Source: a virus
Length of the DNA: 64,000 nucleotides
Virus record (IMG/VR): IMGVR_UViG_3300028025_000091
Coordinates: 1 to 64,000 of that record
Direction: 5' to 3' (one strand)
Below are positions 31,683-59,239 of the stretch, one piece after another. The number at the start of each line of letters is the position of its first letter. The first letter of the stretch is position 1. Made by a program: the position numbers and the translations under genes. The notes beneath the pieces were generated by a model. That model did no database searches. It saw nothing but the letters and a program-made list of their open reading frames with translations, and was not told the origin of the DNA.

Positions 31683-33236
31683 ATGGCTAAAATATTAGAA
31701 AATATATTTACTCCGAATGTAGATGAAATTGCCCAAAATTATACTATCGAATCATGGCATGTTTCTCAATCTGTAGATGCTCTTACTGGAATAGATGCCT
31801 ATGATATTACTATTTCAGGTTCATTAGTAGTAACTGGATCTGTTGCTATAAATGGATTAAGTGATATAACTCAAAATAATGTAGTAACAATTGATGCTTC
31901 TACAGGACAATTATATTATACAGCATCTTCAAATTTTAACGTAAATAATTTTTATACTAGTAGTGTTACCCAAAGTATTACATCTAGTGTAGTAAATAAT
32001 GTTGTTAATAACAGCACAGTCAACCAAACTATTATCAGTAGTAGTGTAAATAATGTTGCTCCATCTAATCAATATATCCAATATAACAGTGCTAGTGCTT
32101 TTGGAGCGAGTGCTAATTTTCAATATGTTTATCCAAACGAAAGTTTTCAACAAGGATTAAGTGTTATAGCATCTGGTAATTATTCTCATGCCCAAGGAAA
32201 AGGTACGATTGCTTCTGGAAATAATTCTCATGCTGAAGGAGAATCTACATTATCTATTGGTATTAGTTCTCATGCTGAAGGATATTTTACTTCTGCATCT
32301 GCTGGTTATTCACATGCTGAAGGAAATACAACTAGAGCAACTGCCCCATATGCACATTCCGAAGGAAATTTAACCTTAGCAAGTGCTACAGCATCTCATG
32401 CTGAAGGAAGTGCTACTACATCTAGTGGTATTTTTTCACATGCTGAGGGTGTAGGTACTGTATCTCTAGATGTAGGAGCCCACTCAGAAGGATCTTCTAC
32501 AATGGCTCGTTCCCCATATTCCCATGCTGAAGGATATTTAACTACATCATCCGGTCAATTTTCTCATACTGAAGGAGGATCAACAAGAACAACAGCAACT
32601 TACGCTCATGCTGAAGGACAAAATACTCTAGCATCCAACCAATCTTCTCATGCTGAAGGATATTTTGTTACAGCATCGGGTATATATTCACATGCTGAAG
32701 GTGAATCCACCAGAGCTATAGCCCAATCATCACATGCTGAAGGCTCAACCAATCTAGCCTCAGGACAAGGATCACATGTTGAAGGTATATTTAATACATC
32801 TTCTGGAAATTATTCCCATGCAGAAGGAGGTGGATCAAAAGCATTAGGACTTTATTCACATGCTGAAGGATCTTCTAATACTGCTTTTGGAATTGGAGCC
32901 CATGCTGAAGGATTTAATACTTACGCCCTTGGAAATCAGTCCCATACTGAAGGACAATATACTATAGCTTCAGGTTCTTATCAACATGTACAAGGACAAT
33001 ACAATACTCAAGGAGATTCAACATCTTTATTAATTGTAGGAAATGGAACATCTACTGTAGCTCGTAAAGATGCATTTAAAGTAAGAATGTCTGGTTCTAT
33101 TGTTTTACCTACAACTCAATCAACTGCTCCATCTTGGACAGGTACAGATGGAGAAATTGTTCCCGCAACCGTAGGAGGTGTTCATCGACTTTATATGTGG
33201 ATGTCTGGAGCATGGAGATCATCTACATTCTCTTAA
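31683..33236 (+). CDS. Tail fibre/adhesin with SHAEG beta-roll repeats
   Basis: 517 aa. Residues 1-150 are an attachment region with Val/Thr/Asn-rich strands. From about residue 165 to 440 there are some 20 repeats of 14 residues of the form SHAEGxxTxASGxx. This is the left-handed beta-roll unit of YadA-type trimeric adhesin heads (Hep/Hag family). After it, VGNGTSTVARKDAFKVRMSG is a cap-like end and the last 60 residues are a tip domain. Probable receptor-binding fibre; trimer assembly is expected from the family. Confidence 0.85.
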   Translation: MAKILENIFTPNVDEIAQNYTIESWHVSQSVDALTGIDAYDITISGSLVVTGSVAINGLSDITQNNVVTIDASTGQLYYTASSNFNVNNFYTSSVTQSITSSVVNNVVNNSTVNQTIISSSVNNVAPSNQYIQYNSASAFGASANFQYVYPNESFQQGLSVIASGNYSHAQGKGTIASGNNSHAEGESTLSIGISSHAEGYFTSASAGYSHAEGNTTRATAPYAHSEGNLTLASATASHAEGSATTSSGIFSHAEGVGTVSLDVGAHSEGSSTMARSPYSHAEGYLTTSSGQFSHTEGGSTRTTATYAHAEGQNTLASNQSSHAEGYFVTASGIYSHAEGESTRAIAQSSHAEGSTNLASGQGSHVEGIFNTSSGNYSHAEGGGSKALGLYSHAEGSSNTAFGIGAHAEGFNTYALGNQSHTEGQYTIASGSYQHVQGQYNTQGDSTSLLIVGNGTSTVARKDAFKVRMSGSIVLPTTQSTAPSWTGTDGEIVPATVGGVHRLYMWMSGAWRSSTFS

Positions 33237-35434: not shown

Positions 35435-36190
35435 ATGATAAGTCTAGTTCAATTATTGAAGGAAGTAAAAGGTACTCCTAAAGCTATATTTTTAGCTGGT
35501 CCTGCGGGAAGTGGAAAATCCTATATATCTTCTAAACTTATCCCCAATACATTTACAGTTATCAATTCAGATGACACTTACGAAGAGTTATTAAAAGCAA
35601 GTGGAATTGGTTTAAAACAAAAAGATTTTACACCTGACCAATTATCTCAAGCTTCTAAATTACAAGCACAAGCTAGAAAAGTTACTCAAGACAAACTAGC
35701 TAAATCAGTAGAAGATAAAAATAATATTGTTATTGATGGAACTGGTGCTGCATCTGGACCTGTATTAAAGAAAAAACAACAACTAGAAGATTTAGGGTAT
35801 GAAACATTGATGTTAATGATCTATGTTTCTCCCTTAACTTCACTTGAACGTAATCAAGAACGTGATAGAAGTTTGATGCCTGGAATTGTATTACGTACTT
35901 GGAGAGATGTAAATAAAAATATTGAAACGTATAAACAAGCGTTTGGTAATAATTTTATCTTATTAAACAACAATCCAAAAGACGCTAAACAAGAGTTTAA
36001 CACTGATTTGCTTGAACCATATATTCAAGCATCTACAGCTGTAGGTAAACCTAAAACACCTGAAGAACAAGCAAAATCAGATGCTGAAAAAGCTCAATTG
36101 AATAAAGATATTGAATCTATGGTTAATCAATTACCTAAATTTGATACTCTAGATACAGCTAAAAATAAAATAAATGAATTCGTTAGTTAA
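35435..36190 (+). CDS. P-loop kinase, zeta-toxin-like
   Basis: 251 aa. Walker A GPAGSGKS at residues 22-29, a lid region with Arg-rich RNQERDRSLMPG (about residues 144-155) and INSDDTY, the arrangement of zeta-toxin and polynucleotide-kinase-like proteins. The N-terminus MISLVQLLKEVKG is an amphipathic helix with an L-K-E tripeptide, of the type discussed in the findings. The C-terminal 45 residues are charged and helical. Substrate unknown; overlaps the next gene by 17 nt. Confidence 0.8.
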   Translation: MISLVQLLKEVKGTPKAIFLAGPAGSGKSYISSKLIPNTFTVINSDDTYEELLKASGIGLKQKDFTPDQLSQASKLQAQARKVTQDKLAKSVEDKNNIVIDGTGAASGPVLKKKQQLEDLGYETLMLMIYVSPLTSLERNQERDRSLMPGIVLRTWRDVNKNIETYKQAFGNNFILLNNNPKDAKQEFNTDLLEPYIQASTAVGKPKTPEEQAKSDAEKAQLNKDIESMVNQLPKFDTLDTAKNKINEFVS

Positions 36191-37871
36191 AGCGCTTATA
36201 CAACCTCTATTAGAAGCAATGCAGAATGGTATTGCTTTAGTACCTGGTGGTTTTAAACCGCCTACAATTGGTCATTTTGCATTGGTAGATGAAGTAGCAA
36301 AATACCCTGGAGTAGATAAAGTGATTGTTCTTATAGGACATAAAACACGTGATGGGGTAACTAAAGAAGAAAGTAAAGCGATATGGGATATTTACAAAAA
36401 ATATCTTCCTTCAAACGTTGAAATACAAATAGCAGATAATGCATCCCCAATTTCAGACGTTGGATCACTAATCAAAAATAATCCGGACACAATGTACTAT
36501 CCTGTAGTAGGGATTAGAGGTGAAATGGATTTAGGTGATTTGAAACGTTTTGATAGCATGAAAGGAAAGTATGAAAATTTTAAACCTATCGTTATTAAAT
36601 CAGAAGAAAGTGAAGACCGTATTAGTGGTACAAACACACGTGCTGCCTTAATTGGTGGGGAAAAAGAAAGATTCCAAACATACCTCCCAACTGAACTCTC
36701 AGATAAAGAAAAAGATGAAGTTTGGAATATATTACAAAAATCCCCTATTGAAGAAATGTATGCTGAACCAAGCAAGTTTAGCTACCCTCCAATGATTAAA
36801 TCACTTACAGAATATATGTTAGATAAAGGTATGAATATTCGTCCTTTACCTAAAGTAAAATTTGTAGATGATGATGCTGAAAACGCTCAAAATTTCTTTG
36901 GTAAAACAGCGTATTATGACCCAAATGAACGCGTTATAGTACTTTACACATATGGACGCCATCCAAAAGATGTTATGCGTTCATACGCGCACGAAATGGT
37001 TCATCATATGCAAAACTGTGATAATCGTTTACAAAATATTTCAACCCAAAATACAAACGAAGAAGGTGATTTACCTGAAATCGAAAGAGAAGCATACGAA
37101 AAAGGAAATATGACTTTCCGTAATTGGACAGATACACTAACTGAAGGTGTATTTGGAGACAGAATAGTATGTGATAATTGTGATTGGAGTTGGAAAATAA
37201 AAGATGGTGGAGATGATTTATACATTTGTCATAAATGTGGGCATGATAATACTCCAACCCCATTAAATGAAGGCCGTTACGATAAAATTACAAATGTTAT
37301 TTCCTCTAAAATCTTTAACCAATGGAGAGAAGATTTTAACAATGGTGCTAAAGCATCTCGTTTAGAACAATTTTTCCCATTTGAAGGTGAAGATATAGAC
37401 ATAGACGCTAATATATCCTTCATTCCAGGAATAGGAGTACTTAGAGTAGATGGAGGTGCTGATGATCAAACAAATTATATTGAAGTAAGATTTGAAATAG
37501 ACCCCGAAAAGCTTCCTGAATTCTGGGAAGAAATTTCAATGAATTTAAAAGATGTTATTCGCCATGAAATAGAACATTTAACTCACGGTGAAGGTGGCTT
37601 ATCTAACCCAGCTAAATATATGGAAGATGATACACTTATTCGTAAAATAATTGATGCTAAATTGTTATCACCTGCTCAATATTTTAAATTAGAAAAAGAA
37701 ATAGATGCTAACCTACAAGGAATGTATCTACGTGCTAAAAAAGAAAAACGTGAATTTAAAGATGTTATAGACACTTATTTGGATGCTCAAGATATAACAC
37801 CTGAAGAAAAAGAAGAAATACTAGATCTTTGGAGAAGCAGATTACCTGCATTAAATTTGCCCAAATTTTAA
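36174..37871 (+). CDS. Nucleotidyltransferase fused to two zinc-protease-like motifs
   Basis: 565 aa. N-terminal part: GGFKPPTIGH at 25-34 and ISGTNTR at 150-156 mark a nucleotidylyltransferase of the NMN adenylyltransferase/cytidylyltransferase superfamily. Middle: HEMVHH at 273-278 in AHEMVHHMQ, an HExxH zincin motif. Zinc ribbon: C333-x2-C336 and C352-x2-C355. C-terminal part: HEIEH at 464-468 in RHEIEHLTHGEGG, a second HExxH. Four modules in one phage protein resemble the polyvalent proteins that some elements inject with their DNA. The N-terminus (LVKALIQPLLEAM) is a short amphipathic helix. Substrates are unknown. Confidence 0.8.
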   Translation: MNSLVKALIQPLLEAMQNGIALVPGGFKPPTIGHFALVDEVAKYPGVDKVIVLIGHKTRDGVTKEESKAIWDIYKKYLPSNVEIQIADNASPISDVGSLIKNNPDTMYYPVVGIRGEMDLGDLKRFDSMKGKYENFKPIVIKSEESEDRISGTNTRAALIGGEKERFQTYLPTELSDKEKDEVWNILQKSPIEEMYAEPSKFSYPPMIKSLTEYMLDKGMNIRPLPKVKFVDDDAENAQNFFGKTAYYDPNERVIVLYTYGRHPKDVMRSYAHEMVHHMQNCDNRLQNISTQNTNEEGDLPEIEREAYEKGNMTFRNWTDTLTEGVFGDRIVCDNCDWSWKIKDGGDDLYICHKCGHDNTPTPLNEGRYDKITNVISSKIFNQWREDFNNGAKASRLEQFFPFEGEDIDIDANISFIPGIGVLRVDGGADDQTNYIEVRFEIDPEKLPEFWEEISMNLKDVIRHEIEHLTHGEGGLSNPAKYMEDDTLIRKIIDAKLLSPAQYFKLEKEIDANLQGMYLRAKKEKREFKDVIDTYLDAQDITPEEKEEILDLWRSRLPALNLPKF

Positions 37872-37872
37872 T

Positions 37873-38406
37873 ATGAAAAAAACACCTACATTATTAGACT
37901 TATACGAGGCCATTAAACCCAAATATACCATTTTTTGTGATATGGATGGTGTGTTAGTTGACTTTGATAAAGGATATGAAGAATTAACGGGTAAACATAC
38001 TAAACACGTTGATTTACAAGACAAAAACGAATTTTGGAGTTTATTAAATCGTAGTTTAAAAGAAAAAGATTTAACAGAATATGATTATTGGGTAAATCTA
38101 GAATGGATGCCTGATGGACAAACACTTTGGGACTATATTAAAGGATACAACCCATATATATTAACGGCTCCTTCAAGAGATCCTGGTTCTAGACAAGGAA
38201 AAACTGAATGGGTTACTCGTTTAGATGGTATGAAAAAATTATATTTTAAACCGGCTTATGCTAAAGCAGAATATGCTGGTAAAAATCGTATACTTATAGA
38301 CGATAGACAAGACACCATTGATAAATGGAATGCTAATGGAGGTATAGGAATTTTTCACACCTCAGCAGCAAACACAATTAAACAACTTCAAAAATTAGGA
38401 CTATAA
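37873..38406 (+). CDS. HAD-family phosphatase, 5'-nucleotidase-like
   Basis: 177 aa. DMDGVLVDFD at residues 23-32 is motif I (D23 nucleophile, D25 acid), LTAPS near 96-100 is motif II, and DDRQDT near 143-148 is motif IV. Length fits the small deoxynucleotidases. In phages these enzymes dephosphorylate nucleotides or DNA/RNA ends. The N-terminus TLLDLYEAIK precedes the domain. It starts 1 nt after the upstream stop. Confidence 0.85.
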   Translation: MKKTPTLLDLYEAIKPKYTIFCDMDGVLVDFDKGYEELTGKHTKHVDLQDKNEFWSLLNRSLKEKDLTEYDYWVNLEWMPDGQTLWDYIKGYNPYILTAPSRDPGSRQGKTEWVTRLDGMKKLYFKPAYAKAEYAGKNRILIDDRQDTIDKWNANGGIGIFHTSAANTIKQLQKLGL

Positions 38407-39619: not shown

Positions 39620-40207
39620 ATGGCAGATAATTTTGACCTAAAAAAATTCTTAAAAGAAAGCAAAGCTCTTGAGAATTTAAATCCTTCAATGAAATCAGTT
39701 AACGAAAACGAATCTCGTGAAGAGAGAGCTGACGTAGACAAATACGAATACGAAAAAGGAAAAAAAGCTGGTAAACGCGAAGATATGAAAGCAAAAATCA
39801 AAGAAATGATTGTTGCTGAATTAGCTGAAGAAGTTACTACTGATAATGCAGATACAGATGATGCAGCCTTAAATGCTGATTATAGTTTTCTAGCTGAAGA
39901 AGGTGAGGAAGTAGAAGAAGCTAAGAAAAAAGATAAAGAAGCTGATGTAGAAGACGTTGAAGTAACTGATACTGACGTTGAAGATGTTTCTATGGAAGAC
40001 GAAATTCCTGCTGAAGAAGCACCTGCTGCTGATGGCGGAATCGAAGACTTAGCAGCTGATATGAAAGGTACAGAAGCAGATCTTATGGACCATTTAATGA
40101 AAGCATTCCAGATTGCCAAAGGAATGCAAAATGAAAAACTTGAAACACAAGTAGGAAATACACTGAAATTCTTCGTTAGCGAATATATCGGTGGAGGTGA
40201 GCAATAA
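39620..40207 (+). CDS. Acidic virion/core-type protein (195 aa)
   Basis: Begins FDLKKFLKESKALENL (L-K-E). The middle is extremely acidic (Glu/Asp/Ala-rich, residues about 72-145). The C-terminus is a short helical domain (MDHLMKAFQIAKGMQNEKLE). The pattern resembles prohead-core proteins. It is preceded by a late motif at zero distance. Function unknown. Confidence 0.65.
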   Translation: MADNFDLKKFLKESKALENLNPSMKSVNENESREERADVDKYEYEKGKKAGKREDMKAKIKEMIVAELAEEVTTDNADTDDAALNADYSFLAEEGEEVEEAKKKDKEADVEDVEVTDTDVEDVSMEDEIPAEEAPAADGGIEDLAADMKGTEADLMDHLMKAFQIAKGMQNEKLETQVGNTLKFFVSEYIGGGEQ

Positions 40208-43122: not shown

Positions 43123-44088
43123 ATGGATAAAGCACGTTTAAAACAACTTATTAAAGAAGTACTATCTACCCCTCCTAAAGAAAAATGTGATTGTGGTTGT
43201 GGTGGTTGTGACGGCTCAAGTAATTCTGGTGTTACACTAAATGAAAGTTTAGTTAAAAAAGATATATTATCGAAAAATCTGCGATACCACGTTGATAAAC
43301 AACTCCCACTTACCGAAAACACGTTCCGATATGGTTCCGAATCATTCCTTAATTTATGGGCAGAAGCTCGTTCATTATATTTACGTGAAATTATTCATGT
43401 AAACGAAGATGATAAACAGATTCTTGAAGAAACTGATTTAGGTAACTTTGGTTTATATGAAAATCAAAGAGTAGCTTTAGATATGCTTATGTTGGAGGAA
43501 GATGAAGAAGAACTAAACATAGGAGATATTATTGAAATTAACCCTAAAGAATTTCCTAACTTTGAATTTCCATACGGTACTGAAGGCGAAATTGAAGATA
43601 TAAACAAAGCAGATTACGCTAGTGACGATTTAGTCTATACCGTTAAAATCAAATATATTGATAGTCAAGGAGATGAAGCTAATACTTTACATATTGAAAA
43701 TTCATCTCAATACCTAGACGAAAACTCCCCAGCATATAAAGGCCCTGAAGGATATGACGATTCATGTGATTGTTATCCTGAGGATAAACTTGAAGAAGCT
43801 GAAGATAAAAAGAAAAATCCACCACTTGGAAAACCAAAACGTGGAGGATCTAAAAAATTCTATGTTTACGTAAAAAATCCTAAAACTAAAAAAATTAAAA
43901 AAGTTAGTTTTGGAGACACATCTGGTTTATCAGCTAAAATAAACAACCCAGAAGCACGTAGAGCATTTGCTGCACGTCACGATTGTAAAAATAAAACAGA
44001 TAAAACCAAAGCATCTTATTGGTCATGTCGTTTACCTCGATATGCTAAATTACTTGGATTAAAATCATCTTTTTCAGGATTCTGGTGA
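43123..44088 (+). CDS. Cys-rich virion-associated protein with N-terminal tag (321 aa)
   Basis: N-terminal tag ARLKQLIKEVL, then a Cys cluster CDCGCGGCDG (about 22-31). The middle is acidic (residues 120-235). The C-terminal domain from about 245 (GGSKKFYVYVKNPKTKKIKK, then ARHDCKNKTDKTKASYWSCR) is a conserved phage domain with Cys and His. It is found in several T4-like structural or head proteins, function unknown. ATGA-coupled to the next gene. Confidence 0.7.
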   Translation: MDKARLKQLIKEVLSTPPKEKCDCGCGGCDGSSNSGVTLNESLVKKDILSKNLRYHVDKQLPLTENTFRYGSESFLNLWAEARSLYLREIIHVNEDDKQILEETDLGNFGLYENQRVALDMLMLEEDEEELNIGDIIEINPKEFPNFEFPYGTEGEIEDINKADYASDDLVYTVKIKYIDSQGDEANTLHIENSSQYLDENSPAYKGPEGYDDSCDCYPEDKLEEAEDKKKNPPLGKPKRGGSKKFYVYVKNPKTKKIKKVSFGDTSGLSAKINNPEARRAFAARHDCKNKTDKTKASYWSCRLPRYAKLLGLKSSFSGFW

Positions 44089-44492
44089 TGGATAGATTAC
44101 AGAAACTTATTAACGAAGTTCTTGAAGAACAAAAAAGCAAACGTGACAGATGTTTACGTATTGCTGACCGTAAGTTTGATAAACCATCGGCTTACAAATC
44201 CGGTGCTGTAGTTAGATGCCGTAAAGGTAATATTTGGAAAGGTATTAAAGAAGAAGTAATTCGAGAAAAAGCTAAAGAAACTCTCCGCACTTGGTTCAAA
44301 CGTAAAGGTGCACCTGGTAAAAAAGGTGGATGGGTAGATTGCAATACTTGCCGTGAAGTAGACGGTAAAATAAAATGTAAAGCATGCGGCAGAGAAAAAG
44401 GAGAAAAACGTTCAAAATATCCTTCATGTCGCCCTACAGCAGCACAATGTAAAACACCTGGTAAAGGTACTAAATGGGGAAAAACAAAATGA
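44085..44492 (+). CDS. Conserved Cys-rich phage protein (135 aa)
   Basis: N-terminal tag LQKLINEVLEEQ, then DRCLRIADRKFDKPSAYKSG and AVVRCRKG. The C-terminal block is WVDCNTC (about 83-89), CKACGREKGEKRSKYPSCRP and WGKTK. This zinc-like Cys pattern recurs in many phages as an uncharacterised domain. Starts in ATGA overlap with the previous gene. Confidence 0.75.
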   Translation: MMDRLQKLINEVLEEQKSKRDRCLRIADRKFDKPSAYKSGAVVRCRKGNIWKGIKEEVIREKAKETLRTWFKRKGAPGKKGGWVDCNTCREVDGKIKCKACGREKGEKRSKYPSCRPTAAQCKTPGKGTKWGKTK

Positions 44493-44914
44493 TTAAACTA
44501 CTTGAAATATTAAGCGAAGCTGAATCAAATAAATGTCCTATTCCAACTCAAAATATAGAGTTAAATTTGCAAAATAGACAAAAAGCAATTAATGAATATG
44601 GGTATGGGCCTTTAAACCCAAATGAACCAAATGAAAAATTTTGGCAATCCAAAGCAGATATGTGGCAACTTGATTCAGTAGAAGAAGCTAAAACTTCACG
44701 TTGTGGTAATTGTGCTGCATTTGATGTTACAACAAAAACTTTAGATTGCATAGCTAAAGGAATAGGTGATGATGAAGGTACAGAAGATCCATTTGACGTT
44801 ATTAAAGCTGGAAAATTAGGATATTGTAGAATGCTTAAATTTAAATGTGCTGCTGCTCGAACTTGTGATGCTTGGGTTGTTGGTGGTCCAATTACAGATG
44901 ACAAAACCATATAA
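44489..44914 (+). CDS. Conserved Cys-rich phage protein (141 aa)
   Basis: I chose the ATG at 44489, giving a 4-nt ATGA overlap with the previous stop, over an in-frame ATG at 44474. The protein starts MIKLLEILSEAESNKCP. NRQKAINEYGYGPLNPNEPN and RCGNCAAFD, CRMLKFKCAAARTCDAWVVG mark a phage family with paired Cys, presumably metal-binding, of unknown function. Confidence 0.75.
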   Translation: MIKLLEILSEAESNKCPIPTQNIELNLQNRQKAINEYGYGPLNPNEPNEKFWQSKADMWQLDSVEEAKTSRCGNCAAFDVTTKTLDCIAKGIGDDEGTEDPFDVIKAGKLGYCRMLKFKCAAARTCDAWVVGGPITDDKTI

Positions 44915-45161
44915 CGACATAGAAGTTACTGACAAATATATTATTCGTGAATTTAACGAAAATATAGACCCAATAGAACTTATGTGGCACCGTGATGATG
45001 AAGATAGAACCGTTGAAATTTTAAATGAAACAGATTGGCAACTTCAGCTAGATAATAGCTTGCCTACTTCATTAAAAGAACGTATATTTATACCAAGACA
45101 CGAATGGCATCGTGTAATAAAAGGAACAGGAACACTCAAGTTAAAAATACATAAATCATGA
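44898..45161 (+). CDS. Hypothetical protein (87 aa)
   Basis: The ATG at 44898 (MTKPYNDIEVTDKYIIREFN) is preferred over an upstream in-frame ATG at 44847 that would add a spurious hydrophobic stretch from inside the previous gene. Strand-rich with EWHRVIKGTGTLKLKI at the end. Overlaps neighbours on both sides. Confidence 0.7.
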   Translation: MTKPYNDIEVTDKYIIREFNENIDPIELMWHRDDEDRTVEILNETDWQLQLDNSLPTSLKERIFIPRHEWHRVIKGTGTLKLKIHKS

Positions 45162-45508
45162 AATTAGATAACTTAAAAGAATTAGTAAAAGAAGAACTTA
45201 AACGTGCTTTAAATGAAGAAGGTGATGAAATTTCATCTATTAAAACTTTAGAGGATGCTATAGCTTTTTTAAATAACAACAAACAAAAAATTCTCCAAAT
45301 TGCAGATAAACATGCTGGGGATGTTCAAAAAATGCAACATGATATTGATGTATTTCTTCAACCATACCTTATAGACACTCCCGAATTTATAGCTAACAAA
45401 ATCAAAGCAGCTATCGGTGGTGCTATTAGTAAAAGAAACATTAAAAACACACCAGAACTTTCCCAAACATACGATAAACTAAAAAACGTAAAAGGATTTG
45501 TAGGATAA
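45158..45508 (+). CDS. Hypothetical protein with N-terminal tag (116 aa)
   Basis: MKLDNLKELVKEELKRALNE is a clear amphipathic tag; the rest is helical. Last gene of a run ending at a terminator. Function unknown. Confidence 0.7.
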   Translation: MKLDNLKELVKEELKRALNEEGDEISSIKTLEDAIAFLNNNKQKILQIADKHAGDVQKMQHDIDVFLQPYLIDTPEFIANKIKAAIGGAISKRNIKNTPELSQTYDKLKNVKGFVG

Positions 45509-45617: not shown

Positions 45618-46931
45618 ATGGACAAAAAAATAGTAATAGTAGGAGCAGGCGTTGCCGGTGTCAACGCTGCAACAAAGTTAGTGGATAATGGATATCCTGG
45701 AGAATTAATCACAATCATTGATATGGGTAAAGATCCATATAAACGTTTACCTGAAGAAGTAATGACAGGTTTTTTAGGTGCTGGAGGTTGGTCTGATGGT
45801 AAATTAACTTACCACACAGCAATTGGAGGCCAATTGTCAAAATATACAGGCGAGGATAAAGCAATGGAATTGATGGATCAAGTGATTACCAATTTCAAAC
45901 GTTTTCACCCTAAACCTGAAGAAGTACAATGTTCAAATCCTGTTGAGGAACCTGAATTTATTAAACCATATTTCGGTTTACGTTTATTCCCAGTATGGCA
46001 TGTAGGAACAGATTATTTATCTGAAATTGCTAAAAATTGGTACGATTATTTAGTTGATAATGGAGTTGATTTTAGATGGGAAACTAAAGTAACATCTATT
46101 AACTTCAAAAATAATCATGTATCGTGTGATATTTTAAATAGTGAATTAGGACTCCAGTTAGATTATGATGAGCTTATTTTTGGTGTAGGTAAATCAGGTA
46201 TTGATTTCGCTCAACAATTAGCCCAAGAATATGAATTACCAGATGAACCTAAATCAGTACAAATTGGAGTTCGATTTGAGGCACCACAAGAACATTTCCA
46301 AAAACTAATTGATATTTCATATGACTTTAAGTTATATAGAAAATTTGATGATGAAGGAGTATCGTTACGTTCATTCTGTACAAATAATAATGCTGCTTAT
46401 GTTGCTGTAGAAGAAACATATGGAGATCACAGTTACAATGGTCACGCTAAAAAAGACGAAGCATATAGAAACAATATGACTAACTTTGGTATATTAATGG
46501 AAATTAATGGTATTGAAGATCCATTTACTTGGTCACGTGATGTAGTAAATAAAGTACAGGCAAACGGAACTGGTTTGTATTATAGCCCATCTCGTACACC
46601 ATCAACTACATCTGAAGGTAATAATGTAACTTCAACACAAATCAGTTTAGATACACTTACTCATGTTGTAGAACCTGCAATGGGTGGTTATTTCAAATAC
46701 GTTATGGACTTTATCATGGATATGAAAAAAGTATTCCCTACACTTGGAGACGATTGGGGAATGTATATTCCTGAAGTAAAATATTTGTCACCTGAGGTAA
46801 AAGTAGATTATAGTAATCTTAGTCTAATCGATTATCCTAACGTACATTTCGTAGGTGATGCTTTAAGTGCACGTGGTATTACAGTGTCGGGAGCGCAAGC
46901 AATTTATGTAGCAGAAAGTTTTTTAAAATAA
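45618..46931 (+). CDS. FAD-dependent oxidoreductase, COG2509-like
   Basis: 437 aa. Rossmann FAD-binding motif GAGVAGVNAA at 9-18. Further blocks are GVGKSGIDFAQQLA (about 194-207), IGVRFEAP (about 220-227), SLRSFCTNNNAAYVAVEE (about 252-269), SYNGHAKKDEAY and the C-terminal VHFVGDALSARGITVSGAQA, the usual second FAD block. The arrangement resembles uncharacterised FAD-dependent dehydrogenases of the COG2509 kind. Reaction unknown. Rare in phages as far as I know; paired with the P-loop gene that follows at 5 nt. Confidence 0.8.
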   Translation: MDKKIVIVGAGVAGVNAATKLVDNGYPGELITIIDMGKDPYKRLPEEVMTGFLGAGGWSDGKLTYHTAIGGQLSKYTGEDKAMELMDQVITNFKRFHPKPEEVQCSNPVEEPEFIKPYFGLRLFPVWHVGTDYLSEIAKNWYDYLVDNGVDFRWETKVTSINFKNNHVSCDILNSELGLQLDYDELIFGVGKSGIDFAQQLAQEYELPDEPKSVQIGVRFEAPQEHFQKLIDISYDFKLYRKFDDEGVSLRSFCTNNNAAYVAVEETYGDHSYNGHAKKDEAYRNNMTNFGILMEINGIEDPFTWSRDVVNKVQANGTGLYYSPSRTPSTTSEGNNVTSTQISLDTLTHVVEPAMGGYFKYVMDFIMDMKKVFPTLGDDWGMYIPEVKYLSPEVKVDYSNLSLIDYPNVHFVGDALSARGITVSGAQAIYVAESFLK

Positions 46932-46936
46932 AAGTT

Positions 46937-47467
46937 ATGAAAATAGGATTTACAGGAACAATGTCAGTTGGTAAAACAACATTAGTTAATGCATTAAAGG
47001 AATTACCTGAATTTGCTGAATATGAGTTTAGAACTGAGCGTTCAAAATATTTACGTGATATGGGTATTCCATTGAATACTGATTCAACATTAAAAGGTCA
47101 AATTATTTTCTTTGCTGAACGTTCAAGTGAATTATTTCACAATGATATGATTACTGATCGTACTGTGATTGATGTAATGGCGTTTACGCGTTTAGCTAAA
47201 TCGATTCCATATTTTATGGCAGACGCATTGAATGATGCTGTATCGCATTTAATACGCGAATATGATTATATTTTTTATATTTCACCTGAAGGTGTAGAAT
47301 TAGAAGATAATGGTGTTCGTACTATAGATGCAAAGTATAGAAATGAAATTGATAAAGAAATTCAAAAGTTGATTTTGAAACATAAAAGTAAATTTAAATC
47401 ATATCATGAATTATCGGGTACTACCGAGGAGAGAATTGAGAAAATTAAACAAGTAATGTCCCTTTAA
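46937..47467 (+). CDS. P-loop kinase, NadR/AAA_28-like
   Basis: 176 aa. Walker A GTMSVGKT at 7-14, TERSKYLRDMG (about 33-43), FFAERSSELF (about 57-66) and DRTVIDVMAF (about 74-83). These blocks match the AAA_28 group, which includes the ribosylnicotinamide-kinase part of NadR. Substrate cannot be proved here. Start context AAAAGTTATGAAA. Confidence 0.8.
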   Translation: MKIGFTGTMSVGKTTLVNALKELPEFAEYEFRTERSKYLRDMGIPLNTDSTLKGQIIFFAERSSELFHNDMITDRTVIDVMAFTRLAKSIPYFMADALNDAVSHLIREYDYIFYISPEGVELEDNGVRTIDAKYRNEIDKEIQKLILKHKSKFKSYHELSGTTEERIEKIKQVMSL

Positions 47468-47488: not shown

Positions 47489-48382
47489 ATGAAAAAAGAT
47501 CGTTTACTTGAAATTATACGTGAAGAAATCAACGAAGCATTAAATGTACTAATAACCAATAAAAAAGGTGAAACTACCACAATGCCATATAATACTCCAG
47601 ATGAAAAAAAATCAGTAATGAATCTTAAACAAGATAATAACATTACAAATATTGAAACTACTGCGGGTCAAAATATTAAAGAGGAAGAAAAAGTAAAAAA
47701 ATTAGCTGAAAAATACCAACTTGATGAAGAAACCATCAATGAAATGGCTAGTATTAAACAGTTAAAAAGTGAATTAGCAAGACAAGGAAAAGAAGCTGAA
47801 TTGAAAGCTGTTGCTGATGCCGAACGTGCTGCTTTAGATACTTTAAAAGCAGACCCTACAATTACCCCAGACGGGCGATTAAAAGGATATGTTCCTACAC
47901 TTAAAAAAGAATTGTTAAATACACACAATATTAAATTACAAGATTTATTATCTAAAGTAGCTGGAAAAGCTGAAGATGATGGTGTGAAATTTAGCAGTGA
48001 TATCGCTACTAACACTATTGAAAAAGATGCTGCTAATCAATTAACCGGAAAAGAAGCTGGTCAACGTGGTAGAAAAGCAACTGAAAAACCAGCTAAAGCA
48101 GAAAAAGCACCTAAAGTAGAACCTAAAAAATCAGAATCTACAGATGACGAAGATGTGGAAGCGGTAAAAGCAGCAGGTAGCGACGAAACAGCAAAAGAAT
48201 TAGGTAGCACACCTGAAGAAAAAAAAGTAAAATTCAACCAATTTCTAGCATCCGTTAAGAAAAATAAAGACGATAAAGCTAAAATTGATGGTATTTTAAA
48301 ATTAGCAAAAGATAAATTTAAATTTGCTAAAACAATGATGGATGATTTAAAACGTGCTGCTGGTAGAGAAGTAGAAGCGTAA
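47489..48382 (+). CDS. Hypothetical charged protein with N-terminal tag (297 aa)
   Basis: Tag RLLEIIREEINEALNVL at residues 5-21. Residues 65-160 are helical (coiled-coil-like), a Lys/Pro/Ala-rich linker spans about 190-220, and the C-terminus is a compact helical unit. The composition fits a head-core or internal protein. TAATG overlap with the spanin-like gene. Confidence 0.65.
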   Translation: MKKDRLLEIIREEINEALNVLITNKKGETTTMPYNTPDEKKSVMNLKQDNNITNIETTAGQNIKEEEKVKKLAEKYQLDEETINEMASIKQLKSELARQGKEAELKAVADAERAALDTLKADPTITPDGRLKGYVPTLKKELLNTHNIKLQDLLSKVAGKAEDDGVKFSSDIATNTIEKDAANQLTGKEAGQRGRKATEKPAKAEKAPKVEPKKSESTDDEDVEAVKAAGSDETAKELGSTPEEKKVKFNQFLASVKKNKDDKAKIDGILKLAKDKFKFAKTMMDDLKRAAGREVEA

Positions 48383-52643: not shown

Positions 52644-53501
52644 ATGCAAGTTAAACATTCAAAGTATAAAAATACTGGTATCCTTTTCGAACTATTAGTT
52701 CGTCAAATCACCACAGATACATTAGATGGTAAGGATTCACCGGCTAAAGATATACTAAAAAAATATTTCGTTAAAACGGAATTGGGTCGTGAGTACAAGT
52801 TATATGAAACGTTATTGAAAAAAACATCGTTAACTGAAGCTAAAGCAAATATTGTTGTTAGTACATTAACTGAATCTTCACTTACCTTAAATAGAGGGGT
52901 TATTAAACGTCAAAAATATAATCTGATTAGCGAAATCCAAAAACATTATGATTTAAATGAATTTTTTAATCATAAGCTTCCTAATTATAAAGTATTTGCT
53001 GCGTTTTATACGTTGTTAGAAATTACTAACACACCTAAAAACGCTGACCTTGACCAAACGATCAACAATAAAGTGACTATTTTAGAACACTTAACTGCTG
53101 CTCAAATTACAGAAGGTAAAGTACGTGATGAAGTGATGGATGAATTCAATAATGTTGATAAAGATGTACGTTTATTAGCTTATAAAATGCTTTTAGAAAG
53201 TTTCAATACTAAATACGATACATTACATACTAAACAAAAAGAAATTCTTAAAGAGTATATTACTTCAATTGATAATACTTCTCGTTTAAAAGAATTCTAT
53301 ACTAATAAAATTAATGAAATTAAAGAAACATTAACTTCATTAAATGAAAATACTAAAAACGAAGTTACCAAAATCAAAATCAACGAAATTATTAATATCA
53401 TTACCATTCCAGCTAAAAATGCTAAGATAAATGATGATAATCTAGTTGATTTGTTACAATATTACGATTTAATTAATGAATTAGAAACTGTAAATGTCTA
53501 A
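52644..53501 (+). CDS. Head-region protein of unknown function (285 aa)
   Basis: Begins MQVKHSKYKNTGILFELLVR. This opening is found in many T4-like phages between portal and protease genes. All-helical. Probably a head or core component by position. Overlaps the next gene by 8 nt. Confidence 0.7.
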   Translation: MQVKHSKYKNTGILFELLVRQITTDTLDGKDSPAKDILKKYFVKTELGREYKLYETLLKKTSLTEAKANIVVSTLTESSLTLNRGVIKRQKYNLISEIQKHYDLNEFFNHKLPNYKVFAAFYTLLEITNTPKNADLDQTINNKVTILEHLTAAQITEGKVRDEVMDEFNNVDKDVRLLAYKMLLESFNTKYDTLHTKQKEILKEYITSIDNTSRLKEFYTNKINEIKETLTSLNENTKNEVTKIKINEIINIITIPAKNAKINDDNLVDLLQYYDLINELETVNV

Positions 53502-53994
53502 ACTTAAAGAAATAATTCGTAAAAAACTTAAAGAAGTAAGCGCTACCGGAATGGGTGGCGCTACTGCTATTCCTGGTGAAGGTATAGGAATGGCTACTAA
53601 ATATGCCTTTAAAAAAACTAAAATTAAAGAAGGACCTGGAGCTACTTTAGGTATGGGTCCAAGTGCTGGTTCCGAAGGTGTAAAAGATAATGCTTACGTA
53701 AAGCAATTTAAATATAAACTAGTACCTAAAAAAATTAAAGGATCTGGTTTAGAAGTTAAACAACTTTGGGAAGAAGATATACTAAACGAAGTAAATGAAT
53801 TTCAACAAAAACGTTTAGATGCATTAGATGAAATTGAAACATTAATGAATGAAATAGGTCCATTAATTTCAAACGCTAAAAACGAAACAATTGAACTATA
53901 TAGCGGAAACGCAGGTTCGTATGACATAACAAAACCAATTGAAATGGTAAAGAGTTATCTCCAAGACATAAAACAACTATTATCAGAAAAATAA
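53494..53994 (+). CDS. Head-region protein with N-terminal tag (166 aa)
   Basis: Tag KLKEIIRKKLKEVS at 3-16. Then a Gly/Ala-rich segment (about residues 17-60) and a helical C-terminus. Shape fits a packaged or core protein. TAATG overlap with the following gene. Confidence 0.65.
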   Translation: MSKLKEIIRKKLKEVSATGMGGATAIPGEGIGMATKYAFKKTKIKEGPGATLGMGPSAGSEGVKDNAYVKQFKYKLVPKKIKGSGLEVKQLWEEDILNEVNEFQQKRLDALDEIETLMNEIGPLISNAKNETIELYSGNAGSYDITKPIEMVKSYLQDIKQLLSEK

Positions 53995-55434: not shown

Positions 55435-56067
55435 ATGAATAAACAACTACTAATAGAAACCAGACATTTCAGTCCAAAACCACTTACGTTATTGGAAGGA
55501 ATGAAAACCAACGGAAATGTTTTCGTTGAAGGAATATTGGCTACAGTTGAAGTTAAAAACGGTAATGGCCGTTATTACCCTAGAGAATTATGGGAACGTG
55601 AAATCGACAATTTTGCACGTAAAATCCAAATGAAATCTACTGAGACATGTGGTGAATTAGACCATCCTGACTCGCAAGTAATCAACCTTAAAAACGCATC
55701 TCATGCGATACGTGAATTGTATTGGAAAGGTGATGAAATATGGGGTAAAGTAGAAATTTTCTCTGATATGGGTGATTTAGGTACCTCATCTGGTCGTATA
55801 GCTGGAGCGTTAGTTAAAAATGGCCTATTGATTGGTATTTCTTCTCGTGGAATGGGTTCATTAAAACAAGTTGGTGAAATAATGGAGGTACAAGATGACT
55901 TCGAATTATTAACTTGGGATTTAGTTTCCAACCCATCAAATCCAGATTCATGGATGAAAAACGGTGCGTTAAACGAATCACGTACTACATATTTAGATCC
56001 ATACGCTAAAACAAACTCACTTATTACCGAAATTTTATGTGCTAAAGGCACGTGTCCTATATTTTAA
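55435..56067 (+). CDS. 21: Prohead core protease, gp21-like
   Basis: 210 aa, the usual length. GELDHPDSQVINLKNASH with H77 as a catalytic candidate, and GISSRGMGSLK near residues 133-143 with the nucleophilic Ser. Then DFELLTWDLVSNPSNP. Family: S77/U9-type protease that cleaves scaffold and internal proteins after (I/L)-x-E during capsid maturation in T4. Stop is followed by a terminator. Confidence 0.9.
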   Translation: MNKQLLIETRHFSPKPLTLLEGMKTNGNVFVEGILATVEVKNGNGRYYPRELWEREIDNFARKIQMKSTETCGELDHPDSQVINLKNASHAIRELYWKGDEIWGKVEIFSDMGDLGTSSGRIAGALVKNGLLIGISSRGMGSLKQVGEIMEVQDDFELLTWDLVSNPSNPDSWMKNGALNESRTTYLDPYAKTNSLITEILCAKGTCPIF

Positions 56068-57517: not shown

Positions 57518-59239
57518 ATGTCAAGTATTAATTCATTACTAGAAAGCGCAGCAAGTGGGTGGAAAAACCTACAAAGCGACGCAGCTCGTATGTCCTCAAA
57601 ATGGGGTAAAACGGGATTATTAGAAGGATTAGGAAGCGAAGTTGATAAAAACAACATGGCTATGATCCTTGAAAACCAAGCAAAACAATTGGTTGTTGAG
57701 CAATCTTCAACTCAAGCAGGAGGTTCAGGATTTACAACTGGAACCGGTGAAAACTGGGCTGGAGTAGCTCTTCCATTGGTACGTAAAGTATTTGGTTCTT
57801 TATCAACTAAAGAATTCATGTCTGTACAACCAATGAATTTGCCATCTGGACTTGTATTCTTCTTAGATTTCCAATATGGTGATTCTAACGGTAAAGCAGC
57901 TCCTACGGGTCCATTTGGTCCTGGTGGAAATCCTTACGGTGCTACATCTTCAATGTACGGTAACACTAACCCAGGTGTTAATGCTGATGCATCTCAAGGT
58001 TTGTATGGTGCAGGTCGTTTTGCATACTCAATCAACCAATTCTCAGCTTCTGTAGCTACAACTCGTACAACTGCTCTTTGGCAAGATGTAGATTATGATA
58101 CAACTTTATCTGCTTCTATAGCTGCTGGTAATTATTCAAAAGTTACTGTTACTGTTGGTGCTGGTACTAACGCATTACGCCCTGATTTCAAAGGTGTTCG
58201 TGCATTCGTATTAGCTTCAGGTTCAGCAACTACTCCTCAAGCTGTACCAGTTGCTAACTTGTTACCTCAATATACAGCTACTGACGGAACTTCTACAGTT
58301 TCATTCATATTCTCAGGATCTGCAAGTGGTCCAGGTGGTGGTGTACCAGGTACTGGTTCAGCAACTACAAACAACTCATTGTTCTACAACGTTCAACCAG
58401 CTGATAACTACAGAGGTGACTTCGAAGATAGCAATGGTGCTGGTTATCCAAATGCTGATTCTACATCTTCTGATCAATTAGCTATTCCACAGATTAACAT
58501 CAACATGAAATCTGAAGCTATTGTTGCTAAAACACGTAAATTGAAAGCACAATGGACACCAGAATTTGCTCAAGATTTGAACGCATACCAATCATTGGAT
58601 GCTGAAGCTGAGTTAACATCTATCATGTCTGAGTACATCGCTCTTGAGATCGACTTAGAAAACTTAGATATGTTGATTCAAGATGCATCTGCTTGGGATG
58701 AGTACTGGTCAGCTAAAAACAACAACTATTTGAACGCAGGTAAAACAGCTTGGGCTGATGATGCTGGTTACTACAACACACAAGGTCAGTGGTTCCAAAC
58801 TTTAGGTACTAAAATGCAGAAAGTTAGTAACAAAATCCACCAGAAAACTCTTCGTGGAGGTGCTAACTTCTTATTATGTTCTCCTTCAGTAGCAACTATC
58901 TTGGAATCAATCCCAGGATTTGCTGCAGGATCTGATGGTGATGTAACTAAAGCGTCTTACGCATTTGGTATCCAGAAAGCGGGTCAAATGAATAACCGTT
59001 ACACAGTTTACAAAAACCCTTACATGACAGAAAACTTGATCTTGATGGGTTATAGAGGAGCTCAATTCCTTGAAACTGGTGCGGTATTTGCTCCATATGT
59101 TCCATTAATCATGACACCTCTTGTGTACGATCCAACTACATTTACTCCACGTAAAGGTTTATTGACTCGTTACGCTAAGAAAATGATCCGTCCGGAATTC
59201 TTCGGTCGTATCTGGGTTAACGATTTGAACGTAATCTAA
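57518..59239 (+). CDS. 23: Major capsid protein, gp23-like
   Basis: 573 aa. Typical blocks: NSLLESAASGWKNLQSDAAR N-terminal, then GENWAGVALPLVRKVFG, AQDLNAYQSLDAEAELTSIM, GGANFLLCSPSVATILESIP and RYAKKMIRPEFFGRIWVNDL at the end. HK97-like fold expected. N-terminal 50-70 residues are probably removed by the protease, as in T4. Flanked by a terminator downstream. Confidence 0.95.
   Translation: MSSINSLLESAASGWKNLQSDAARMSSKWGKTGLLEGLGSEVDKNNMAMILENQAKQLVVEQSSTQAGGSGFTTGTGENWAGVALPLVRKVFGSLSTKEFMSVQPMNLPSGLVFFLDFQYGDSNGKAAPTGPFGPGGNPYGATSSMYGNTNPGVNADASQGLYGAGRFAYSINQFSASVATTRTTALWQDVDYDTTLSASIAAGNYSKVTVTVGAGTNALRPDFKGVRAFVLASGSATTPQAVPVANLLPQYTATDGTSTVSFIFSGSASGPGGGVPGTGSATTNNSLFYNVQPADNYRGDFEDSNGAGYPNADSTSSDQLAIPQININMKSEAIVAKTRKLKAQWTPEFAQDLNAYQSLDAEAELTSIMSEYIALEIDLENLDMLIQDASAWDEYWSAKNNNYLNAGKTAWADDAGYYNTQGQWFQTLGTKMQKVSNKIHQKTLRGGANFLLCSPSVATILESIPGFAAGSDGDVTKASYAFGIQKAGQMNNRYTVYKNPYMTENLILMGYRGAQFLETGAVFAPYVPLIMTPLVYDPTTFTPRKGLLTRYAKKMIRPEFFGRIWVNDLNVI

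Follow-up and report, generated by a model that had tools for sequence, protein, structure and literature searches.

The window spans the first 64 kb of a virus record of 173,789 bases. An ATG-started open reading frame at 36174-37871 (+ strand) in it encodes a 565-residue protein, P0001, which we read as a capsid-targeted polyprotein of injected enzymes, likely to be cut into its modules by the prohead protease. Packaging and cutting are both deduced from features of the sequence, and we place the probability of this reading at about 0.68. In the mechanism that we propose, the first 14 residues would serve as a T4-style capsid-targeting sequence and bring the chain into the prohead core, where the S77/gp21-type prohead protease would cut after [L/I]-x-E at sites present at the end of the leader and at the module junctions. 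The products, a nucleotidyltransferase, an IrrE-like zincin, a small Cys4 ribbon and a second zincin, would lie separate within the head, and would be ejected with the DNA to become active in the cell from time zero. The kinase and nucleotidase encoded on either side would take the same route as the polyprotein via equivalent leaders. On this account, the three genes resemble an operon for injected enzymes that act on nucleotides and proteins. The mosaicism described below would also follow from the junction motif, as modules could be exchanged, inserted or split provided that each keeps [L/I]xE in front.

The preliminary description of this stretch, which delimited exactly the same reading frame, had placed a nucleotidyltransferase, two HExxH motifs and a CxxC/CxxC ribbon within it. 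All of these motifs were found (GGFKPPTIGH at residues 25-34, ISGTNTR at 150-156, HEMVHH at 273-278, CDNC/CHKC at 333-336 and 352-355, and HEIEH at 464-468), and their ligands are conserved. Its proposal of an injected polyvalent protein is strengthened by the T4-type leader and the protease-type junctions, by the S77 protease that this genome encodes, and by a distant cyanophage homologue having been detected in virions; the NMN/NaMN chemistry that it attached to that protein did not gain support, and where it saw a single enzyme of four modules, the evidence better fits a precursor from which separate enzymes are cut.

Genomic context and flanking enzymes

On profile matches the phage is T4-like, with T4-type TerL, portal, S77 prohead protease and gp23 all encoded in the window. 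The gp21/S77-type prohead core protease, which is the proposed processing enzyme, lies at 55435-56067 (+; Peptidase_S77, 1.3e-27; phrog_207, 2.7e-48). The major capsid protein gp23 follows at 57518-59239 (+; Gp23, 7.4e-73), and its sequence begins MSSINSLLE/S and contains a further LLE/G (the slash marking a proposed cut), tripeptides of the type seen in P0001.

The polyprotein gene sits in a same-strand run, downstream of a DnaG-like primase and an exonuclease. It is overlapped by 17 nt by the gene for a Zeta-toxin/AAA_33-like P-loop kinase (35435-36190, +; Zeta_toxin, 3.1e-12), with the leader MISLVQLLKE/V, and is directly followed on its 3' side by the gene for an NT5C-like 5'(3')-deoxyribonucleotidase (37873-38406, +; phrog_2643, 3e-31), with the leader MKKTPTLLDLYE/A. 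Among the distinct N-terminal peptides of these two enzymes in relatives, [LI]xE occurs in 40/40 for the kinase and 30/30 for the nucleotidase, or 70/70 together; the leaders vary in sequence and in length, and the tripeptide immediately precedes the domain. Eight relatives have the nucleotidase fused to the polyprotein, where LNE, LFE, VFE or IKE precedes it. The gene is likewise surrounded by primase, exonuclease and nucleotidase genes in Flavobacterium phage immuto. Elsewhere in the window, a protein with many SHAEG repeats and a weak YadA_head match (31683-33236; E 0.0019) is probably a fibre, and the region 45618-47467 encodes an FAD/NAD-dependent oxidoreductase-like protein and then an AAA_28 P-loop kinase-like protein.

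Domain architecture of P0001

The AlphaFold model of P0001, computed from 40 sequences (mean pLDDT 76, pTM 0.42), consists of separate folded units. Module 1 (residues 15-194; 36216-36755, +), which ends in the junction tripeptide IEE194, is predicted to have the HIGH nucleotidyltransferase fold of NadD and PPAT: the best Foldseek match has an E value of 1.3e-4, and 21 chains fall below 1e-3, with target-normalised TM-scores mostly between 0.55 and 0.78. The active-site motifs are TxGH (PPAT-like, with Thr for the first His of HxGH) and ISGTNTR, to be compared with HxGH and SxTxxR in NMN/NaMN adenylyltransferases, and the Pfam family CTP_transf_like scores 13.3 bits against P0001, below its cut-off of 21. 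With this TxGH motif, a sub-threshold Pfam score and no NAMPT-type family found in the record, the specific NMN/NaMN chemistry suggested earlier is not supported. A family search of the record likewise returned no NAPRTase as a partner in NAD salvage. NAD_synthase is matched below threshold (18.2 bits, cut-off 21) outside the window, at record position 117105-117482; with NAPRTase absent from the record and NAD_synthase matched only at this level, we do not propose that the NAD pathway is complete.

Module 2 (residues 195-324; 36756-37145, +) is a candidate zincin-like domain with HEMVH at 273-277 and E304/E306, and ends in LTE324. Module 4 (residues 367-565 and the stop codon; 37272-37871, +) is a second such domain, with HEIEH at 464-468 and E509, and has no known-family match. 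H273, E274, H277, E304 and E306 are invariant in 40/40 aligned relatives, as are H464, E465, H468 and E509 in all 35 relatives whose sequence reaches module 4. Because these downstream glutamates are invariant, both HExxH motifs have a candidate third ligand, the absence of which the preliminary description had named as grounds for rejecting its proposal. Domain 1 has a stand-alone, alignable homologue, gp332 of Synechococcus phage B23; in B23 and its relatives this stand-alone protein begins M(N/L/F)YKQFLxE/S. Domain 1 resembles IrrE/ImmA-type peptidases (Pfam M78) in its HExxH plus downstream ExEA, and B23 gp332 matches Peptidase_M78/IrrE weakly (9e-4), although the score, at 19.5 bits, lies under the Pfam cut-off of 22, P0001 itself has no M78 match in Pfam, and the PDB match to IrrE is not significant. 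For the zincin domains, no significant match came from Pfam, from profile searching of the PDB or from Foldseek with residues 200-565: the best PDB matches have E values of at least 0.08, with IrrE at E 0.9-1.1 only. A BFVD search gave an IrrE-like match at 1.5e-4. As the PDB searches were without significant matches, the zincin assignment rests on the motif, on ligand conservation and on the viral-library match.

Between the two putative zincins lies module 3, a Cys4 ribbon (residues 325-366; 37146-37271, +) that ends in LNE366. The ribbon is optional, being cleanly missing from L009-L011, L013-L017 and other relatives; no zinc-ribbon family exceeded its cut-off in a profile search, and a search of the isolate-phage collection returned no homologue.

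Leader and junction sites

In T4, gp21 cleaves after L/I-X-E, and the first ten residues of IPIII are enough for head targeting (PMC9026906); Alt is cleaved at ITE-6 and LTE-619 (PMC9026906; PMC5694885). P0001 begins with the candidate capsid-targeting leader MNSLVKALIQPLLE (residues 1-14; 36174-36215, +), which ends in LLE, is followed by A, and has pLDDT below 50 at residues 11-16. MNSLVKALIQPLLE is unlike the leader of the cyanophage homologues, and a capsid-targeting role is assigned to it by analogy. The protein contains seven [LI]xE tripeptides, four of which, LLE14, IEE194, LTE324 and LNE366, end at residues with pLDDT below 50; these four lie where the N-terminal peptide stops and at all three module junctions. 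Given that pLDDT is below 50 at 58 of the 565 residues, the chance of four in seven ending there is about 0.003 (binomial, our own arithmetic).

The same sites are retained among relatives. At 194, [LIMV]xE occurs in 36/36 aligned rows with seven different P2 residues, and at 366 in 33/33 rows with eight, while P3 and P1 are kept at both; from the aligned sequences, this constancy of P3 and P1 with a variable P2 is the pattern predicted for a protease site. The motif is found in 29/31 rows at position 14 and in 30/40 at 324, the LTE junction being missing in 10/40; the [LI]xE tripeptides within domains are less well kept (30/40, 34/40 and 19/32 rows). Two relatives without the following module (L039, L042) have LTNNN and a stop in place of LTE324, and two others (L045, L046) keep ITE two residues short of the protein end. 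Eleven of 70 relatives begin directly at the nucleotidyltransferase, without a leader, and in the immuto homologue, with its extra N-terminal domain, no leader is recognisable.

Genome-wide, N-terminal [LI]xE is in modest excess (43/143 against about 26 in control windows), and as the tripeptide is short and common we set this enrichment aside as too weak to be an argument by itself. Several small proteins whose genes lie after the polyprotein operon and ahead of the head genes (39620-40207, 43123-44492, 44474-44914, 45158-45508, 47489-48382 and 53494-53994) begin in a similar way, with an N-terminus that ends in [LI]xE, as in MADNFDLKKFLKE/S, MDKARLKQLIKE/V, and MMDRLQKLINE/V in a protein with DUF5872. 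From these N-termini, we regard them as candidates for further internal head proteins.

Module exchange among relatives

Across 80 relatives, modules have been gained, lost and swapped. The inserted or dropped modules include the ribbon, a 120-residue domain (L025) and others (L031, L038, L036, L047), and L033 carries a different HExxH domain. Relatives without the ribbon read LTEGVLNEGRYDK or similar, so that two junction sites simply adjoin. Insertion events with conserved flanks form 58 clusters; 23 of these are no more than three residues away from an [LI]xE end, where 5.3 would be expected, and 20,000 randomisations never gave as high a count. The control motifs [LI]xD, [LI]xK, [DN]xE and [KR]xE show no enrichment at insertion sites; [VFM]xE is somewhat enriched (6 against 2.4). 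These figures come from stricter alignments, which supersede an earlier version of the test with loose alignments (118/505 against 47). As insertion events are phylogenetically non-independent, and some remain misaligned or are alignment artefacts, the clustering is support, not proof, for the junction sites.

The preliminary description had held that separate encoding of the domains in relatives would count against it. Such cases occur, as zincin 1 stands alone in phage B23 and the nucleotidase is either separate or fused; they support exchange of modules as cassettes and do not refute the polyvalent reading. In nine relatives (L012, L049, L050, L051, L052, L054, L057, L071 and L080) a recurring inter-module spacer, KDPFGLNQ(Y/F)AREL..., is followed by [LI]xE within about ten residues, and in its sequence resembles a leader copied into the interior of the protein. 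Other modular-looking proteins with many [LI]xE between segments are encoded in immuto (L082, 11226-11696) and P-TIM68 (L089, 6946-9966), and the DUF5872-like protein of immuto contains an embedded DPQAGKAAPYGSGY cassette.

Virion data and alternative readings

Published virion data cover distant cyanophage homologues of P0001 (about 28% identity for that of P-TIM68) rather than this phage or its close relatives. The putative cytidylyltransferase T4-GC190 was detected by mass spectrometry in purified virions of cyanophage S-SM1 (PMC3037559), and in the deposited genome this protein (SSM1_190) begins MKKFSAFLNE/A. In S-CREM2 virions, 3 unique peptides identify a cytidylyltransferase, and the two genes that follow it are represented there by their products as well (PMC10665884). 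Detection of these homologues in virions speaks against the reading of P0001 as an ordinary cytoplasmic multidomain enzyme of infection, acting in NAD or other nucleotide metabolism and as a peptidase, with [LI]xE arising by chance in E-rich linkers. That reading would suit the eleven leaderless relatives and the fact that [LI]xE is a common tripeptide; the tripeptide in 70/70 leaders of the neighbouring genes and the result of the insertion-site test are at odds with it, and we consider it improbable.

The protein might instead be packaged and lose its leader, yet remain uncut at the junctions and be injected as one multidomain polyvalent protein, whose internal [LI]xE would be leader remnants of gene fusions. 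Relatives do show gene fusion that retains leader-like sequence, and the N4 virion RNA polymerase is packaged without processing (PMC5512222). The retention of P3 and P1 at 194 and 366 while P2 varies, and the loss of LTE324 where the following module is missing, nevertheless suggest selection on the sites and not decay, which leaves an uncut protein rather unlikely. We give still less credence to a self-processing polyvalent protein, in which a zincin domain would cut the chain and the prohead protease be uninvolved. The two zincin-like domains with conserved ligands are compatible with such a scheme, for which P1 DdrB offers a proposed precedent (PMC5512222), whereas [LI]xE also ends the leaders of zincin-free neighbouring genes and is the known specificity of T4 gp21; self-processing thus appears very unlikely.

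Implications and comparison with known systems

A capsid-targeted polyprotein cut by the prohead protease may exemplify a cassette system general in T4-like aquatic phages, a generalisation that we regard as evenly poised. In such a system, an [L/I]xE-ending leader or junction before an enzyme would load it into the head; enzymes could pass freely from separate genes into fused polyproteins and back, since the prohead protease would restore the individual enzymes in the capsid; and one gene would deliver a fixed-ratio mixture of effectors at infection. If this is true, the T4-like maturation protease unpacks polyproteins of injected enzymes, beyond trimming head proteins, and the leader and junction motif may allow the effectors that uncultured phages bring at time zero to be read from sequence. 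The system would further provide a delivery route for many modular hypothetical proteins, and help to account for the cytidylyltransferases and kinases in cyanophage virions.

The injected internal proteins of T4, polyvalent proteins (PMC5512222) and the virion cytidylyltransferases of cyanophages are already known, and both injected polyvalent proteins and prohead proteases come up in surveys of jumbo phages and of NAD systems. Among the open-access papers searched, we found none that ties prohead-protease motifs to module junctions, and priority is not established; on capsid targeting in cyanophages and on prohead-protease polyproteins, the relevant open-access papers were those on T4 and giant-phage heads.

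One of the nearest counterparts is immuto gp088, annotated as an NMN adenylyltransferase (NadR), which shares the order nucleotidyltransferase, zincin 1, zincin 2 and the gene neighbours, and differs in its length (907 aa), its extra N-terminal domain, and its lack of a ribbon and of a clear leader; its junction tripeptides are LAE, LPE and MAE. The cyanophage cytidylyltransferase T4-GC190 of S-SM1 and S-CREM2 is a nucleotidyltransferase of the same kind, from T4-like phages and found in virions, although no zincin modules were seen in the S-SM1 protein. In polyvalent proteins (Iyer et al. 2017, PMC5512222), a single phage protein that is thought to be injected holds at least two enzyme domains unrelated to each other, zincins among them, and P0001, predicted from fold and conserved ligands to unite a nucleotidyltransferase and two HExxH domains in one polypeptide, is alike in this respect. 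Processing of polyvalent proteins is ascribed to their zincins, whereas the junctions of P0001 match the motif of the prohead protease. With the T4 internal proteins IPI-III and Alt, P0001 shares a short N-terminal leader ending in [L/I]xE, and this genome, too, encodes a T4-type S77 protease and gp23; a review of T4 describes the capsid-targeting sequence as a way of loading varied proteins (PMC9026906). The T4 internal proteins and Alt are, however, single proteins trimmed at their ends, whereas P0001 comprises several enzyme modules, with a candidate site at each junction.
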